A stretch of DNA of 64,000 nucleotides from Bacteroidota bacterium (lineage in GTDB: Bacteria > Bacteroidota > Bacteroidia > Chitinophagales > Chitinophagaceae), in contig CANGUG010000003.1 of assembly GCA_947457075.1 (NCBI GenBank), forward strand, positions 103,062 to 167,061, written 5' to 3'. This document shows, piece by piece, positions 4,037-64,000 of the stretch. Position numbers and translations under genes: made by a program. Positions within the stretch are counted from its first letter, which is position 1. Each line of letters starts with the position of its first letter. The notes below the pieces were generated by a model. The model did no database searches and had not been told where the DNA came from. It saw nothing but the letters and a program-made list of their open reading frames with translations.

Positions 4037-4124
<88 letters not shown>

Positions 4125-4132
4125 ACCAATTC

Positions 4133-4160
4133 AAAAACCACGATTAATCGTGGTTTTTTT
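4133..4160 (+). terminator. Rho-independent terminator of tRNA-Ser
   Basis: AACCACGATTAATCGTGGTTTTTTT stem and T-run. Confidence 0.8.
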
Positions 4161-4251
4161 GTTTCCAAAAGTCACGAAGTGAATACATTTTTCGAAAAAA
4201 TGAGGCATAAAGCTTGCTTTAATGCCGAATTTTGAAGAAAAGTGTGAAAAG

Positions 4252-4484
4252 GGCGAAGCCCTTTTTGGAAGTAAAAATAAGTGGCGAAGCCGCAGGTTTT
4301 TGAATTGGTTGAAGCCCCCCACCTAAGGGATGCCGGAACGAAGTGACGGCAATCCAACATTATTAATTTTAAATAAGTGGCGAAGCCCTTTTTGGAAGTA
4401 AAAACCAGTGGCGAAGCCTACGGTTTTTGAATTGGTTGAAGCCCCCCACCTAAGGGATGCCGGAACGAAGTGACGGCAATCCAA
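4252..4484. repeat. Imperfect direct duplication, period 127 bp, about 105 bp conserved
   Basis: Copies 4252-4357 and 4379-4484 share GGCGAAGCCCTTTTTGGAAGTAAAAA...GGTTTTTGAATTGGTTGAAGCCCCCCACCTAAGGGATGCCGGAACGAAGTGACGGCAATCCAA. Confidence 0.95.
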
Positions 4485-4534
4485 TAATAAAGTTGACGAC
4501 AATCCAATTTATATATTTTGAAATTTAGTTATAT

Positions 4535-54146: not shown

Positions 54147-56120
54147 ATGCTGATAGGATTACAAAATGTAACATTTGAATTTGGTGCTAGAGTAATAGTA
54201 AGTGAAGCCACTTGGCATATTCAACCAGGGGAACGTATTGGCTTAATTGGTTATAATGGCACCGGGAAGTCCACCTTGTTAAAACTGCTAGTAGGTCAAT
54301 ACACCCCCAGTAAAGGGACAGTAGAAAAAGGAAGAGACACTACTATTGGCTATTTACACCAGGACTTATTAAGTTTTGATACTAGCGAAACCATCACCGA
54401 AGTGGCTTTAGGTGCATTTGAAAGAGTGCGTGCTTTAGAAAAAGAAATAGAACAACTAGGTATTGAACTAGAAGCCAACCCTGAGGACAATGATATTTTA
54501 ATAAAATATACCGATGCATTACATGAAATTGATGTATTGGATGGTTATAATATTCAACATAAGGCCGAAGAGGTATTACATGGATTAGGATTCACTACCG
54601 CCGACTTAGCCCGACCCTATAAAGAATTTAGTGGAGGTTGGAGGATGCGTGTATTGCTTGCGAAAATGATTTTACAAGCTCCTGATGTATTGTTATTGGA
54701 TGAACCTACCAACCACTTGGACTTGCCTAGTATTGAATGGTTAGAAAAGTATTTAATACATTATAAAGGCAGTGTAGTAATTGTTAGTCACGATAAATTC
54801 TTCTTGAATAAAATGGTGAATAAAATTGTGGAAGTTTATCAACAGCAATTAAATTTCTACACTGGCGATTATGCCTATTACGAAGTGGAAAAAGTACAGC
54901 GTGTCGAAATCCAGCAGCGTGCTTTTGAAAATCAACAAGATTATATACGTCAACAAGAAAAATTTATTGAGCGATTTAAAGCAAAGGCTTCAAAAGCTGC
55001 TCAAGCACAGTCCATTCAAAAAAGATTAGACCGTTTAGAAGTAATAGAAGACGTACAAATAGAACGTCCGAATATAAGAATCAATTTTGCGGTGGACAAA
55101 ACACCAGGCAAGGTATTGGTTGACTTAAAAGGAATAAATAAATCCTATCCTAAGCAAATAATATTAGAGAATGCTTTTGCTGAAATTGAACGAGGTGATA
55201 AAATTGCATTAATTGGCGCCAATGGTAAAGGAAAGTCAACCTTACTTAGAATTGTGGCCGGTATGGAAACGTATGAAGGAGAACGAGTATGGGGGCACAA
55301 TGTGGATGAAAGCTTTTATGCTCAACACCAATTAGAATCTTTAAATCTAAACAATACCATTCTTCAGGAAGTGCAAGAATGTGGCACTAAAAAAACCGAT
55401 TTAGAATTACGTGCCTTATTGGGATGTTTCTTATTTGGCGGCGATGACGTGGATAAACGAATTAAAGTGTTAAGTGGAGGAGAAAAAGCAAGAGTCGCCC
55501 TTACTAAAACTATCATTAGCAAAGCCAACTTTTTAATGCTGGATGAACCTACTAACCACTTGGATATGGTTACGGTAGAGCTATTGGCTGAGGCATTAAC
55601 AAAATATGATGGCAGTATCATTTTAGTAAGTCACGATCGTTATTTCATTTCAAAAACTGCCAATAAAATTTGGGAAATTGAAGATGAAAAAATTGTGGAA
55701 TTCAAAGGTAATTATACCGAATGGGTAGAATGGAAAGAGCGAATGGCAAAGCAAAAAGCAGCACATCCAGAAGCTACAAAAGTGGCTGCTAGCAAACCAA
55801 GTACTGTTGCTGAAAAAAAGCCCGCTGTTACCGAACAAAACGCTGAAACTAAATCAGGCCCCATTGACAAAGAGCTTCAAAAACAAATTCAAAAATTACA
55901 AAAAGCCATTGCGCAATTAGAGCACAATATTGAAGTATTAAATAAGGAAAAAGTAGCTATTGAATTACAAATGGCTGACCCAAGTATCTATTCAGATGTA
56001 AGCAAATTTCAAAGTATTGAAAAAAGCTATCATGATAAGAACGCATTAATTCGATCAATGAATAAGGAATATGAAATGGCTTTTAACGATTTAGTCGAGT
56101 TGGAAAGTAAAATCAAATAG
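54147..56120 (+). CDS. ABC-F family ATPase
   Basis: Two ATPase domains: GYNGTGKSTLLKLL / FSGGWRMRVLLAKMI / LLLDEPTNHLDLPSIEWLE and GANGKGKSTLLRIV / LSGGEKARVAL / MLDEPTNHLDM. Confidence 0.95.
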   Translation: MLIGLQNVTFEFGARVIVSEATWHIQPGERIGLIGYNGTGKSTLLKLLVGQYTPSKGTVEKGRDTTIGYLHQDLLSFDTSETITEVALGAFERVRALEKEIEQLGIELEANPEDNDILIKYTDALHEIDVLDGYNIQHKAEEVLHGLGFTTADLARPYKEFSGGWRMRVLLAKMILQAPDVLLLDEPTNHLDLPSIEWLEKYLIHYKGSVVIVSHDKFFLNKMVNKIVEVYQQQLNFYTGDYAYYEVEKVQRVEIQQRAFENQQDYIRQQEKFIERFKAKASKAAQAQSIQKRLDRLEVIEDVQIERPNIRINFAVDKTPGKVLVDLKGINKSYPKQIILENAFAEIERGDKIALIGANGKGKSTLLRIVAGMETYEGERVWGHNVDESFYAQHQLESLNLNNTILQEVQECGTKKTDLELRALLGCFLFGGDDVDKRIKVLSGGEKARVALTKTIISKANFLMLDEPTNHLDMVTVELLAEALTKYDGSIILVSHDRYFISKTANKIWEIEDEKIVEFKGNYTEWVEWKERMAKQKAAHPEATKVAASKPSTVAEKKPAVTEQNAETKSGPIDKELQKQIQKLQKAIAQLEHNIEVLNKEKVAIELQMADPSIYSDVSKFQSIEKSYHDKNALIRSMNKEYEMAFNDLVELESKIK

Positions 56121-56368
56121 ACAAAAAAGTATTTAAAATAGAATTTTTATTTTCTTATAAAATTCAAAAGGGGTCATCTGCAAAGATGAACCCCTTTTTA
56201 GGTTTAGGTAGTAAAATCAAATAAACAAAAAAGTATTTGAAATAGAATTTTTATTTTCTTATAAAATACAAAAAGGGGTCATCTGCAAAGATGAACCCCT
56301 TTTTAGGTTTAAGTAGTAAAATCAAATAGACAAAAAAGTATTTGAAATATAAATTTTATTTATTTCAA
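56106..56368. repeat. Tandem terminator-cassette duplication (2 full copies and a partial third, period 104-105 bp)
   Basis: AGTAAAATCAAATA.ACAAAAAAGTATTT.AAATAGAATTTTTATTTTCTTATAAAAT.CAAAA.GGGGTCATCTGCAAAGATGAACCCCTTTTTAGGTTTA beginning at 56106, 56210, 56315. Confidence 0.95.
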
Positions 56369-61544: not shown

Positions 61545-63443
61545 ATGTTAGAATCATTTGAAAAAATTCCTGTAAAAATTTACAATAATCCTACTGAAGG
61601 ATCTAATGCATTGGCGGCTCAAATTGCCCAATTAATTCGCGAAAAACAAGCTAAGAATTTACCCTGTGTATTGGGAATGGCTACTGGGGCTACCCCCATC
61701 CTATTGTATAAGGAATTGGTAAGAATGCATAAAGAAGAAGGTTTAAGTTTTAAAAATGTGATTACCATTAATTTAGATGAATACTATCCTATTCCTAGAA
61801 ATGCCTATCAAAGCTATTGGAGTTTTATGCACCGTCATTTATTTGATCATGTGGACATTGACCCCAAAAATATTCACTTACCCAATTCAGAATGGAGCAA
61901 AGAGGAACTAAAAGAAAATTGTGTAGCTTATGAGCAAACCATTGAAAAAATTGGTGGTATTGATTTACAAGTATTGGGAATTGGAAAAAATGGACATATA
62001 GGATTTAACGAACCTGGCTCTAGCTTTCATTCAAAAACAAGGGTCATCCATTTAGACAACCAGACAAGGATGGCTAATTTATATGAATGGCATGATATGA
62101 ATAAAGTACCCCGCACAGCCATTACGGTGGGTATTAGTAGTATTATGAAAGCTAAAAAAATTGTTTTGTTGGCTTGGGGAAACAAAGCTGAAATTGTAGC
62201 AAAATCAGTGGAAGGCGATGTGACTGAACAAGTGCCAGCAAGTGTATTGCAAAATCATGACGACTGCACTTTTATCATTGATGAATATGCAGCAGCAGAA
62301 TTAACAAGAAATAAAGCTCCTTGGTTAACAGGTGCCAATGACTGGTCACCCAAAATGATAAAGAAAGCAGTAATTGAATTAGCCTTAAAATTAGATAAGA
62401 CAGTGTTGAGTTTAACGGCTGATGATTATAAAGAAAATAGTTTAGCCGATTTATTGGTGTTAAAAGAATCGGTGTACGATATCAATTTGCAAGTATTTTA
62501 TATGTTGCGTGACTCAATTACTGGATGGCCCGGAGGAAAGCCTAATGCAGTAATACCTGCACATCCTGAAAGAAGTACGCCAAGTGCAAAACGAGTAATG
62601 ATATTCTCTCCTCATCCCGATGACGATATTATTAGTATGGGTGGAACATTTATGCGCTTAAATGATCAAGGACATGAAGTTCATGTTGCTTACCAAACAA
62701 GTGGGAATATTGCGGTTACCGATGAATTCGTTACCCGATTTCTTGATTTTGCGGTTGGGTTTGAGGACTTATTTGGCATCGACAATAAAAAAAGTAATGA
62801 AATATTATCTGAAGCCCGTGCCTTTTTGGGAAGTAAGAAACCAGGAGAATTAGATACGCATGAAATTCGATCCATTAAAGGTTTAATCAGAAGATGTGAA
62901 GCAAAAGCAACCTGCCGATATGTTGGCATCGATGAACAGAACTATCATTTCATGAATTTGCCCTTTTATGAAACCGGTGCCATTGATAAAAAACCAATGG
63001 GTGAAGAAGATATTGCAATCACCATGGAATTACTTAGAAAAGTTAAACCTCATCAGGTTTATTGTGCAGGTGATTTAGCTGACCCACATGGCACCCATAA
63101 AGTATGTTTAGAAATTGTTTTTGAAAGTATGCGTCGATTAAAAGCAGCCGGTGACGAATGGGTTAATGATTGTTGGGTATGGTTGTATAAAGGCGCTTGG
63201 CAGGAATGGGATATTTCTGAAATAGAAATGGCGGTGCCAATGAGTCCAGACCAAGTGATGAAAAAACGTTTTGGCATATTCATTCATCAGTCTCAAAAAG
63301 ACAGTGTTCCATTCCAAGGTACCGATGCAAGGGAATTTTGGCAAAGGGCTGAAATACGCAACGCCAATACGGCTAATTTATATGCTCGATTAGGCCTTAC
63401 CAAATATGCAGCTATTGAGGCCTTTGTAAGATGGCATTACTAG
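61545..63443 (+). CDS. nagB: Glucosamine-6-phosphate deaminase fused to a PIG-L/LmbE-type deacetylase domain
   Basis: NagB half: ITINLDEYYPIPRNAYQSYWSFM, GIGKNGHIGFNEPGSSF; C-terminal half: MIFSPHPDDDIISMGGTFMRL ... DLADPHGTHKVCLEI. Confidence 0.92.
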   Translation: MLESFEKIPVKIYNNPTEGSNALAAQIAQLIREKQAKNLPCVLGMATGATPILLYKELVRMHKEEGLSFKNVITINLDEYYPIPRNAYQSYWSFMHRHLFDHVDIDPKNIHLPNSEWSKEELKENCVAYEQTIEKIGGIDLQVLGIGKNGHIGFNEPGSSFHSKTRVIHLDNQTRMANLYEWHDMNKVPRTAITVGISSIMKAKKIVLLAWGNKAEIVAKSVEGDVTEQVPASVLQNHDDCTFIIDEYAAAELTRNKAPWLTGANDWSPKMIKKAVIELALKLDKTVLSLTADDYKENSLADLLVLKESVYDINLQVFYMLRDSITGWPGGKPNAVIPAHPERSTPSAKRVMIFSPHPDDDIISMGGTFMRLNDQGHEVHVAYQTSGNIAVTDEFVTRFLDFAVGFEDLFGIDNKKSNEILSEARAFLGSKKPGELDTHEIRSIKGLIRRCEAKATCRYVGIDEQNYHFMNLPFYETGAIDKKPMGEEDIAITMELLRKVKPHQVYCAGDLADPHGTHKVCLEIVFESMRRLKAAGDEWVNDCWVWLYKGAWQEWDISEIEMAVPMSPDQVMKKRFGIFIHQSQKDSVPFQGTDAREFWQRAEIRNANTANLYARLGLTKYAAIEAFVRWHY

Positions 63444-63557: not shown

Positions 63558-63631
63558 GGCCCCGTAGCTCAACTGAATAGAGTATTTGACTACGGATCAA
63601 AAGGTTTCAGGTTTGAATCCTGACGGGGTCA
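63558..63631 (+). tRNA. tRNA-Arg (anticodon ACG)
   Basis: Acceptor GGCCCCG/CGGGGTC, anticodon stem TTTGA/TCAAA with loop CTACGGA, T-arm TCAGG-TTTGAAT-CCTGA; no encoded CCA. Confidence 0.93.
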
Positions 63632-63633
63632 CA

Positions 63634-63662
63634 AAGCCCGCACGAACAGTGCGGGCTTTTTT
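63634..63662 (+). terminator. Terminator of tRNA-Arg
   Basis: AAAGCCCGCACGAACAGTGCGGGCTTTTTT. Confidence 0.87.
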
Positions 63663-63765
63663 ATTGCGAGAAGGCGTCAAGAGCTTGCTCTTGTAAGTCT
63701 TCGAGTAATAAAAAAGCAAAAACATCAACTCCGTTGATGTTTTAAAGGGCTTTGGGTACGACCAA

Positions 63766-64000
63766 TGCGAAAAGGATGCGACCGAAGGGAGCAATCCTAT
63801 TTAGTCATGACAACTGCGAAAAGGATGCGACCGAAGGGAGCAATCCTATTTAGTCATGACAACTGCGAAAAGGATGCGACCGAAGGGAGCAATCCTATTT
63901 AGTCATGACAACTGCGAAATGGATGCGACCGAAGGGAGCAATCCTATTTAGTCATGACAACTGCGAAATGGATGCGACCGAAGGGAGCAATCCTATTTAG
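63766..64000. repeat. 49-bp tandem repeat array (4 full units and a partial fifth, truncated by window end)
   Basis: TGCGAAAAGGATGCGACCGAAGGGAGCAATCCTATTTAGTCATGACAAC starting at 63766, 63815, 63864, 63913, 63962. Confidence 0.98.

Follow-up and report, generated by a model that had tools for sequence, protein, structure and literature searches.

A tandem array at the end of a contig

What does a strictly periodic array of 49-bp hairpin repeats represent directly behind a tRNA gene, an element in its own right or the edge of something larger? The locus lies at the end of a 64,000-nucleotide stretch of Chitinophagaceae DNA (hereafter the window), where the initial annotation had described five near-identical units downstream of tRNA-Arg that run off the end. 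Both observations hold. TRF, run on the window, reports the array at 63766-64000 with a period of 49, 4.8 copies, 99% match and a score of 456, which rules out a chance origin, and the unit starts read from the sequence (63766, 63815, 63864, 63913 and 63962) agree with it; tRNA-Arg(ACG) lies at 63558-63632, and the window ends where contig C3 (167,061 bp) ends, inside the array, leaving 39 nt only of the fifth unit.

63766..63814, + strand: array unit 1, with the tail hairpin AGGATGCGACCGAAGGGAGCAATCCT at 63773-63798 (sequence, TRF, folding)
63815..63863, + strand: array unit 2 (sequence, TRF)
63864..63912, + strand: array unit 3, the last AAAAGG unit (sequence, TRF)
63913..63961, + strand: array unit 4, AAATGG (sequence, TRF)
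63962..64000, + strand: array unit 5, incomplete at the contig end, with its probable continuation on contig C20 (sequence of C3 and C20)

Units 1-3 read TGCGAAAAGG and units 4-5 TGCGAAATGG, and this block order, which carries on into contig C20, bears out the proposal of unit-wise duplication. The stem AGGATGC..GCAATCCT, with one bulged A on its 3' side, had been ascribed to every unit; it is present in units 1-3, whereas the AAATGG change in units 4-5 removes its outermost A-T pair. The 8-bp palindrome GTCATGAC is found in all four complete units, the fifth being cut at 39 nt. The units abut without spacers, as had been argued against CRISPR, and a search of the 2.23-Mb assembly (20 contigs, 96.5% complete) with the 49-bp unit and its 24-nt core returned the array locus only, at both contig ends, so that the suggestion of a dispersed REP/MITE-like family falls away. 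The unit is not a dispersed REP, a CRISPR or an integron site. A GTCATTGCGAG-type Bacteroidetes repeat, considered as a candidate, was also discarded, as it has no dispersed copies in the window and the literature gave unrelated papers only.

Counting of units beyond the contig end was possible through contig C20 (3,820 bp), one end of which is the same array on the opposite strand, with three AAATGG units followed by diverged units that carry another hairpin, GGATGTTGCGCAGCAACCATCC. Near-identical units across the two contigs number at least six, namely three AAAAGG and at least three AAATGG. Since C3 and C20 both end within the array, the assembly broke inside the repeat, and we infer, short of proof, that C20 follows C3 in the genome, because in one relative (L021) tRNA-Arg is followed by a homologue of the 127-aa gene next to the C20 array. 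Repeats break this assembly elsewhere as well: contigs C5 and C20 (L165, L180) have near-identical starts consisting of OmpA-like gene ends, and C9 and C19 (L169, L179) have near-identical starts with an intergenic palindromic repeat.

A single 49-bp unit shows modest RNA folding (MFE z -2.0), and what comes after the array hairpins is ATTTAG or ATTTAAG rather than a T run. The strong folding lies upstream of the array, at 63640-63775 (z = -7.6).

A four-way junction between the tRNA and the array

A scan of the tRNA genes of this genome identified the array as only the 3' edge of an element that is common to many of them. The idea that the locus could be a source of structured RNA is therefore supported, though not for the array alone, since the array is the tail of a larger conserved four-way junction with the following parts.

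61545..63443, + strand: NagB-like/PIG-L deacetylase fusion, 632 aa, the conserved upstream neighbour (synteny anchor)
63558..63632, + strand: tRNA-Arg (anticodon ACG), host gene of the element (ARAGORN; Rfam RF00005)
63633..63758, + strand: four-way-junction module, beginning one base past the tRNA (covariance model R1, 124.8 bits, E 1.7e-25; G000:C3:166694-166819)
63633..63639, + strand: segment A (AAAGCCC), 5' strand of P1 or of the terminator stem (folds, pair counts)
63640..63652, + strand: hairpin 1, GCAC-GAACA-GTGC (folds, pair counts)
63653..63662, + strand: segment B (GGGCTTTTTT), terminator U-tract or 5' strand of hairpin 2 (sequence, folds)
63655..63717, + strand: hairpin 2, a long imperfect stem with apex AGAG-CTTG-CTCT (CUUG tetraloop), closed by GCTTTTTT/AAAAAAGC
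63719..63743, + strand: hairpin 3, AAAACATCAAC-TCC-GTTGATGTTTT (folds)
63747..63753, + strand: segment B' (GGGCTTT), 3' strand of P1 (folds, pair counts)
63752..63765, + strand: small hairpin TTGG-GTACGA-CCAA that separates junction from array and shares its first two T with B' (equivalent in relatives: TTGGGTAAGCCCAA)

The closing helix P1, formed by 63633-63639 and 63747-63753, encloses three hairpins. Across loci the order of parts is A (AAAGCC), hairpin 1, B (GGCTTTTTT), hairpin 2 with a AAGCTTGCTT apex, A' (AAAAAAGCC), hairpin 3, B' (GGCTTTGGGTAA) and the hairpin units, and the junction is built from P1 (A:B'), hairpin 1, hairpin 2 (B:A') and hairpin 3, the last of which is a different palindrome at each tRNA of the genome. 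The same strands allow a second fold, in which 63633-63662 reads AAAGCCCGCAC-GAACA-GTGCGGGCTTTTTT, a G+C-rich hairpin 1 followed by a T run; as this A:B pairing is an ordinary intrinsic terminator, the terminator and the junction are mutually exclusive. P1 is closed in the MFE folds of 8 of the 9 junction sequences of the genome, the Leu-TAA sequence adopting the terminator fold instead, and at tRNA-Leu(CAA) the segments have changed together (AAACCC / GGGTTTTTT / AAAAAACCC / GGGTTT). The 632-aa protein encoded upstream is a fusion of two domains, glucosamine-6-phosphate isomerase and PIG-L deacetylase.

Occurrence of the junction among tRNA genes and genomes

A covariance model built from 13 sequences, which contains no tRNA sequence, gave ten strong matches in this genome, nine of them at full tRNA genes (Arg-ACG, Glu, Arg-TCT, three Leu, Ser-GGA, Lys and Met) and the tenth at a tRNA-Met 3' fragment; more than half of the tRNA genes have no junction. 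With the same model, matches were obtained in 110 of 147 genomes of the genus, 35 of 249 of the family and 71 of 395 of the class Bacteroidia. As to position, 69 of the 88 family and genus matches begin within 10 nt of an ARAGORN tRNA, several of the 17 without such a tRNA have a tRNA 3' fragment, and at class level, outside the family, 15 of the 18 best loci lie within 12 nt behind a tRNA. One match behind tRNA-Phe (L214, E 8e-4) was rejected as false, having no junction fold, and the tRNA-Glu module had no match in phage and plasmid records.

Individual loci show further elaborations. One contig (L337, G602 contig C30) carries four whole modules in tandem over about 1 kb, with starts about 177 or 550 bp apart. 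Behind tRNA-Arg in L019 (G266) and at tRNA-Cys in L122, further complete hairpins are nested in hairpin 2, like an insertion of hairpin into hairpin. Apparent tRNA-Leu fragments in G423 and G425, considered as attachment sites, turned out to be an intron-like insertion of about 240 nt in the anticodon loop; this group I intron-like insertion in tRNA-Leu(UAA) is seen at L311 (6520-6870) and L312, and ARAGORN misses both.

Covariation and the case for RNA

The junction is well supported as a conserved structure with compensatory changes, beyond what shuffled and slid controls give, on figures that come from a model-fitted alignment. For 13 sequences, both the number of paired cells and the covariation score exceeded all 500 shuffles. 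In an alignment of 87 diverse sequences, 94.0% of the cells are paired, two-sided changes occur at 35 of 35 pairs and 0 of 500 shuffles match this, although the alignment was fitted to the model and its figures thus lean towards the structure. One row of another file, alignment A3 (own_SerGga), contains one extra loop base. When the pairs were slid along the 87-sequence alignment, pairing fell to 39-55%, and RNAalifold, with no structure supplied, recovered the same junction.

Among the helices of the 87 sequences, P1 is the best kept (96.4% paired), ahead of the alternative terminator pairing A:B (89.4%; terminator hairpin, 89.2%) and of the minus-strand terminator pairing A':B' (80.2%), which makes it unlikely that the junction merely arises from two terminators that face each other. 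G-U pairs on the tRNA strand outnumber A-C mismatches in each inner stem, by 28:3 in hairpin 1, 17:5 in the hairpin 2 apex and 25:6 in hairpin 3, or 70:14 in sum (combined two-sided p 4e-10). A looser count with over-extended stems had given 25:22 for hairpin 3 and with it the notion of a DNA hairpin, which we dropped in view of the inner stems. The hairpin 2 loop is G(CUUG)C in 52 of 104 sequences, a number that rises to 68 when G(CUCG)C is counted as well, and the hairpin 1 loops are mostly GNRA-like; CUUG and GNRA loops are stable RNA loops. Together, the G-U bias and the loops suggest that selection acts on the RNA of the tRNA strand, including the parts past the terminator, while transcription-linked C-to-T mutation or shared ancestry could contribute in part to the G-U excess.

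Arrays behind tRNA genes in relatives and in this genome

About 50 Chitinophagaceae metagenome genomes keep the NagB-like/PIG-L gene and tRNA-Arg(ACG) in synteny, and the genes downstream vary by species. Behind this tRNA, relatives carry tandem arrays with units of 32, 33, 49, 50, 52 or 58 bp, the sequences of which differ between species while their parts are alike, namely a small hairpin (TTTGGGTAAGCCCAA or TTTGGGTACGACCAA) joined by a TGCGAA linker to a foot hairpin of the form GGAT..ATCC; some relatives have a single unit, others none, and several of their assemblies stop just behind the tRNA. The 24-nt core itself is found in 2 of 299 family genomes at up to two mismatches and in 16 of 147 genus genomes at up to three, the fetched loci lying mostly beside tRNA-Arg(ACG). 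The GGAT..ATCC tail is less general, occurring within 75 nt of the module in only 32 of 85 family and genus matches, and a general test for GG..CC stems downstream of modules came out barely above shuffles.

Analogous arrays, made of different units, lie behind other tRNA genes. Within 700 bp, tandem arrays accompany 6 of 13 junction tRNA genes versus 1 of 18 others (Fisher p 0.012, this genome), with the junction group including partial and truncated junctions and the groups assigned by hand. The lone array without a junction, at tRNA-Ser(TGA) in the same window, is a 127-bp duplication; this region (4037-4500) holds nested hairpins and a foot hairpin GGGATGCCGG..CGGCAATCC, a similar tail with no clear junction. 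At 56106-56361, a 105-bp unit is present 2.4 times and carries an intrinsic-terminator-like hairpin, AAAAAGGGGTCATC..GATGAACCCCTTTTT, which means that tandem terminator duplication occurs away from tRNAs too.

Mobile elements at the same tRNA loci

In one relative (G036), tRNA-Arg(ACG) and the module are separated by an element of 9.6 kb that carries a tyrosine integrase (PF13102/PF00589). The tRNA on one side of this element is intact and followed by a plain terminator, and on the other side a tRNA-Arg 3' fragment, starting from the anticodon loop, precedes the module. The same arrangement exists in G266 at tRNA-Arg(TCT), for which the genome of the window offers the empty site, with the module directly after the tRNA. 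In G137, an element with a serine recombinase (PF00239/PF07508) occupies the tRNA-Arg 3' end and the recombinase C-terminus has been swapped. At this locus (L328, tRNA-Arg and attR) the large serine recombinase gene enters the tRNA antisense after integration and its own C-terminal tail is left at the other end; comparable tails adjoin modules in other genera (L264, L231). The conserved 'DLKRL' arms beside some modules, considered as a gene, are in G137 the C-terminal tail of a serine recombinase that integration has split.

With the integrase elements placed on the tRNA side of it, the module normally belongs to the flank of the host's own tRNA, and because the inserted elements supply the tRNA with a plain hairpin and T-run in place of the module, the junction seems replaceable and thus not essential at every tRNA. 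We had favoured the module as part of a mobile cassette on the basis of G351 and G414, and downgraded this view given the tRNA-side position of the integrase elements and their plain terminators. In G351 (L309), a 213-bp direct repeat, made of 44 bp of the tRNA-Met 3' part and the whole 169-bp module with one mismatch between copies, encloses a 4.2-kb cargo that includes a multicopper oxidase and in which no integrase gene was seen; this indicates that modules are sometimes carried or duplicated. The set of an integrase with a tRNA fragment, as in tycheposons, is absent at the window locus and was seen in G036, G266 and G137; in the genome of the window (96.5% complete), only XerC- and XerD-like tyrosine recombinases, judged by sequence and length, and no integron integrase were found.

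A proposed structured trailer of tRNA transcripts

On balance, we give a probability of roughly one half to the reading in which the element is a structured tRNA trailer, with a role in terminating, insulating or processing the transcript, and the 49-bp array is its 3' tail, duplicated in tandem. What the data support well is the junction itself, in structure, position and breadth; the role in termination, insulation or processing is what we infer. The element would work at the RNA level, on the tRNA strand. On its way out of the tRNA gene, RNA polymerase would meet the A:B terminator first, and transcripts that read through might refold into the junction, a compact second stop or processing structure; by its alternative pairing, the junction is predicted to form only in transcripts that have passed the U-tract. 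In this way it may insulate the tRNA gene from its neighbours and leave a clean tRNA 3' end. At tRNA-Arg the module is followed by the small hairpin and the GGAT..ATCC foot hairpin, and this last part is duplicated into the species-specific units of 32-58 bp, so the tail hairpins would be extra copies that grow by unit duplication under weaker constraint.

A bolder and more tentative reading is that of a class-wide RNA switch in tRNA transcripts, either terminator or junction, in which the junction has a function of its own and the copy number of the tail hairpins sets dose or stability. Such a switch is compatible with two features, namely that the two pairings exclude each other and that the junction is better conserved than the terminator. 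The junction would then be a second cloverleaf-like fold directly behind the tRNA, for which protein binding, control of tRNA release or a separate small RNA are candidate functions.

We consider it unlikely that the module is a selfish palindromic MITE- or REP-like element that moves between tRNA flanks, spares the tRNA through its own terminator and forms arrays by local amplification. One architecture at many tRNAs of a genome with exchanged hairpin 2 types, the hairpins nested in hairpin 2 (G266/L019, tRNA-Cys), the tandem modules of G602 and the direct repeat around 4.2 kb in G351 would all fit such an element, but where the context is known, most matches adjoin the 3' end of a tRNA, a fragment of one or its last bases, copies of the 49-bp unit are not dispersed, neither a transposase nor a target duplication was identified, and two-sided changes persist over many families, unlike in fast-decaying MITEs.

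It is improbable, too, that the locus consists of ordinary tRNA terminators and a meaningless variable repeat produced by slippage at hairpins. In favour of this reading, a lone unit folds modestly, unit size and number vary among species, hairpin 1 is a textbook terminator and a 105-bp terminator duplication exists elsewhere in the window. It explains the array itself well enough but leaves P1 and hairpin 2 unexplained, P1 being the best-kept helix (96.4%) although it competes with the terminator (89.4%), and the minus-strand terminator pairing being weaker (80.2%). Least probable is a DNA-level recombination structure, in which integrases recognise the junction or its hairpins, tRNA loci that have it are hot spots for integration and the array arises as a by-product: tyrosine integrase (G036, G266) and serine recombinase (G137) elements do lie between tRNA and module, and module pairs flank cargo in G351 and G414, but the att cores fall within tRNA sequence, in the anticodon loop or at the 3' end, the genome has XerC and XerD only and the G-U bias points to RNA. 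The anticodon loop and 3' end of tRNA genes are ordinary targets of such integrases.

Relation to known elements

The trailer element resembles several known systems in part. It shares with intrinsic tRNA terminators a hairpin and U-tract directly after the tRNA, but here hairpins 2 and 3 and P1 follow, P1 reuses the terminator strands in an exclusive manner, and a U-tract is lacking from the array units. The E. coli tyrT repeat with its RtT RNA (RF00391) is another case of repeats in tandem shortly after a tRNA gene, in which each repeat carries a piece of the tRNA 3' end; by comparison by eye with tRNA-Arg, the present units carry no such piece, and RF00391 had no Rfam match at array or module. 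As in riboswitches and attenuators, segments have two alternative pairings, one of them a terminator, whereas here the terminator comes first, with the competing junction behind it, and the genes that follow are not of one particular kind. Integron attC arrays are similar in that folded sites lie beside cargo genes in some relatives, but the genome has no integron integrase and the 49-bp units have no cassettes. REP/BIME elements are likewise short, imperfect, bulged hairpins in intergenic tandem, but here each unit type has one locus and is bound to tRNA 3' ends; the GTAG and CGTC tags described for REP families (PMC3733652) are absent from both strands of the 49-bp unit. With tRNA-anchored islands, such as tycheposons and the additive islands of Methylophilaceae (PMC10872708), the loci share tRNA 3' fragments and variable cargo, the difference being that the folded module is normally the host tRNA flank, displaced by such elements.

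In Rfam 15, only the tRNA scored above gathering, and a permissive search with the module from five loci returned none above it. The open-access literature gave no description of a junction element behind tRNA genes, and a keyword reading of two large bacterial structured-RNA surveys turned up nothing at tRNA 3' ends. One of the two, PMC8040213, lists palindromic Bacteroidetes candidates. Apart from these candidates, and as far as we found within Rfam 15 and the open-access literature, the junction is an undescribed structure family.

Implications

The trailers at the 3' end of tRNA genes are usually viewed as a few bases and a terminator. A strongly covarying four-way junction behind many tRNA genes in many families of Bacteroidia would instead constitute a large family of RNA (or DNA) structures, at a type of gene that ranks among the best studied. 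It accounts for the tendency of short-read assemblies to break off behind tRNA genes, as at three contig ends of this genome, and the module can serve as a marker for occupied versus empty integration sites. The element also leads to concrete, testable predictions on the termination and processing of tRNA transcripts in a major bacterial phylum.
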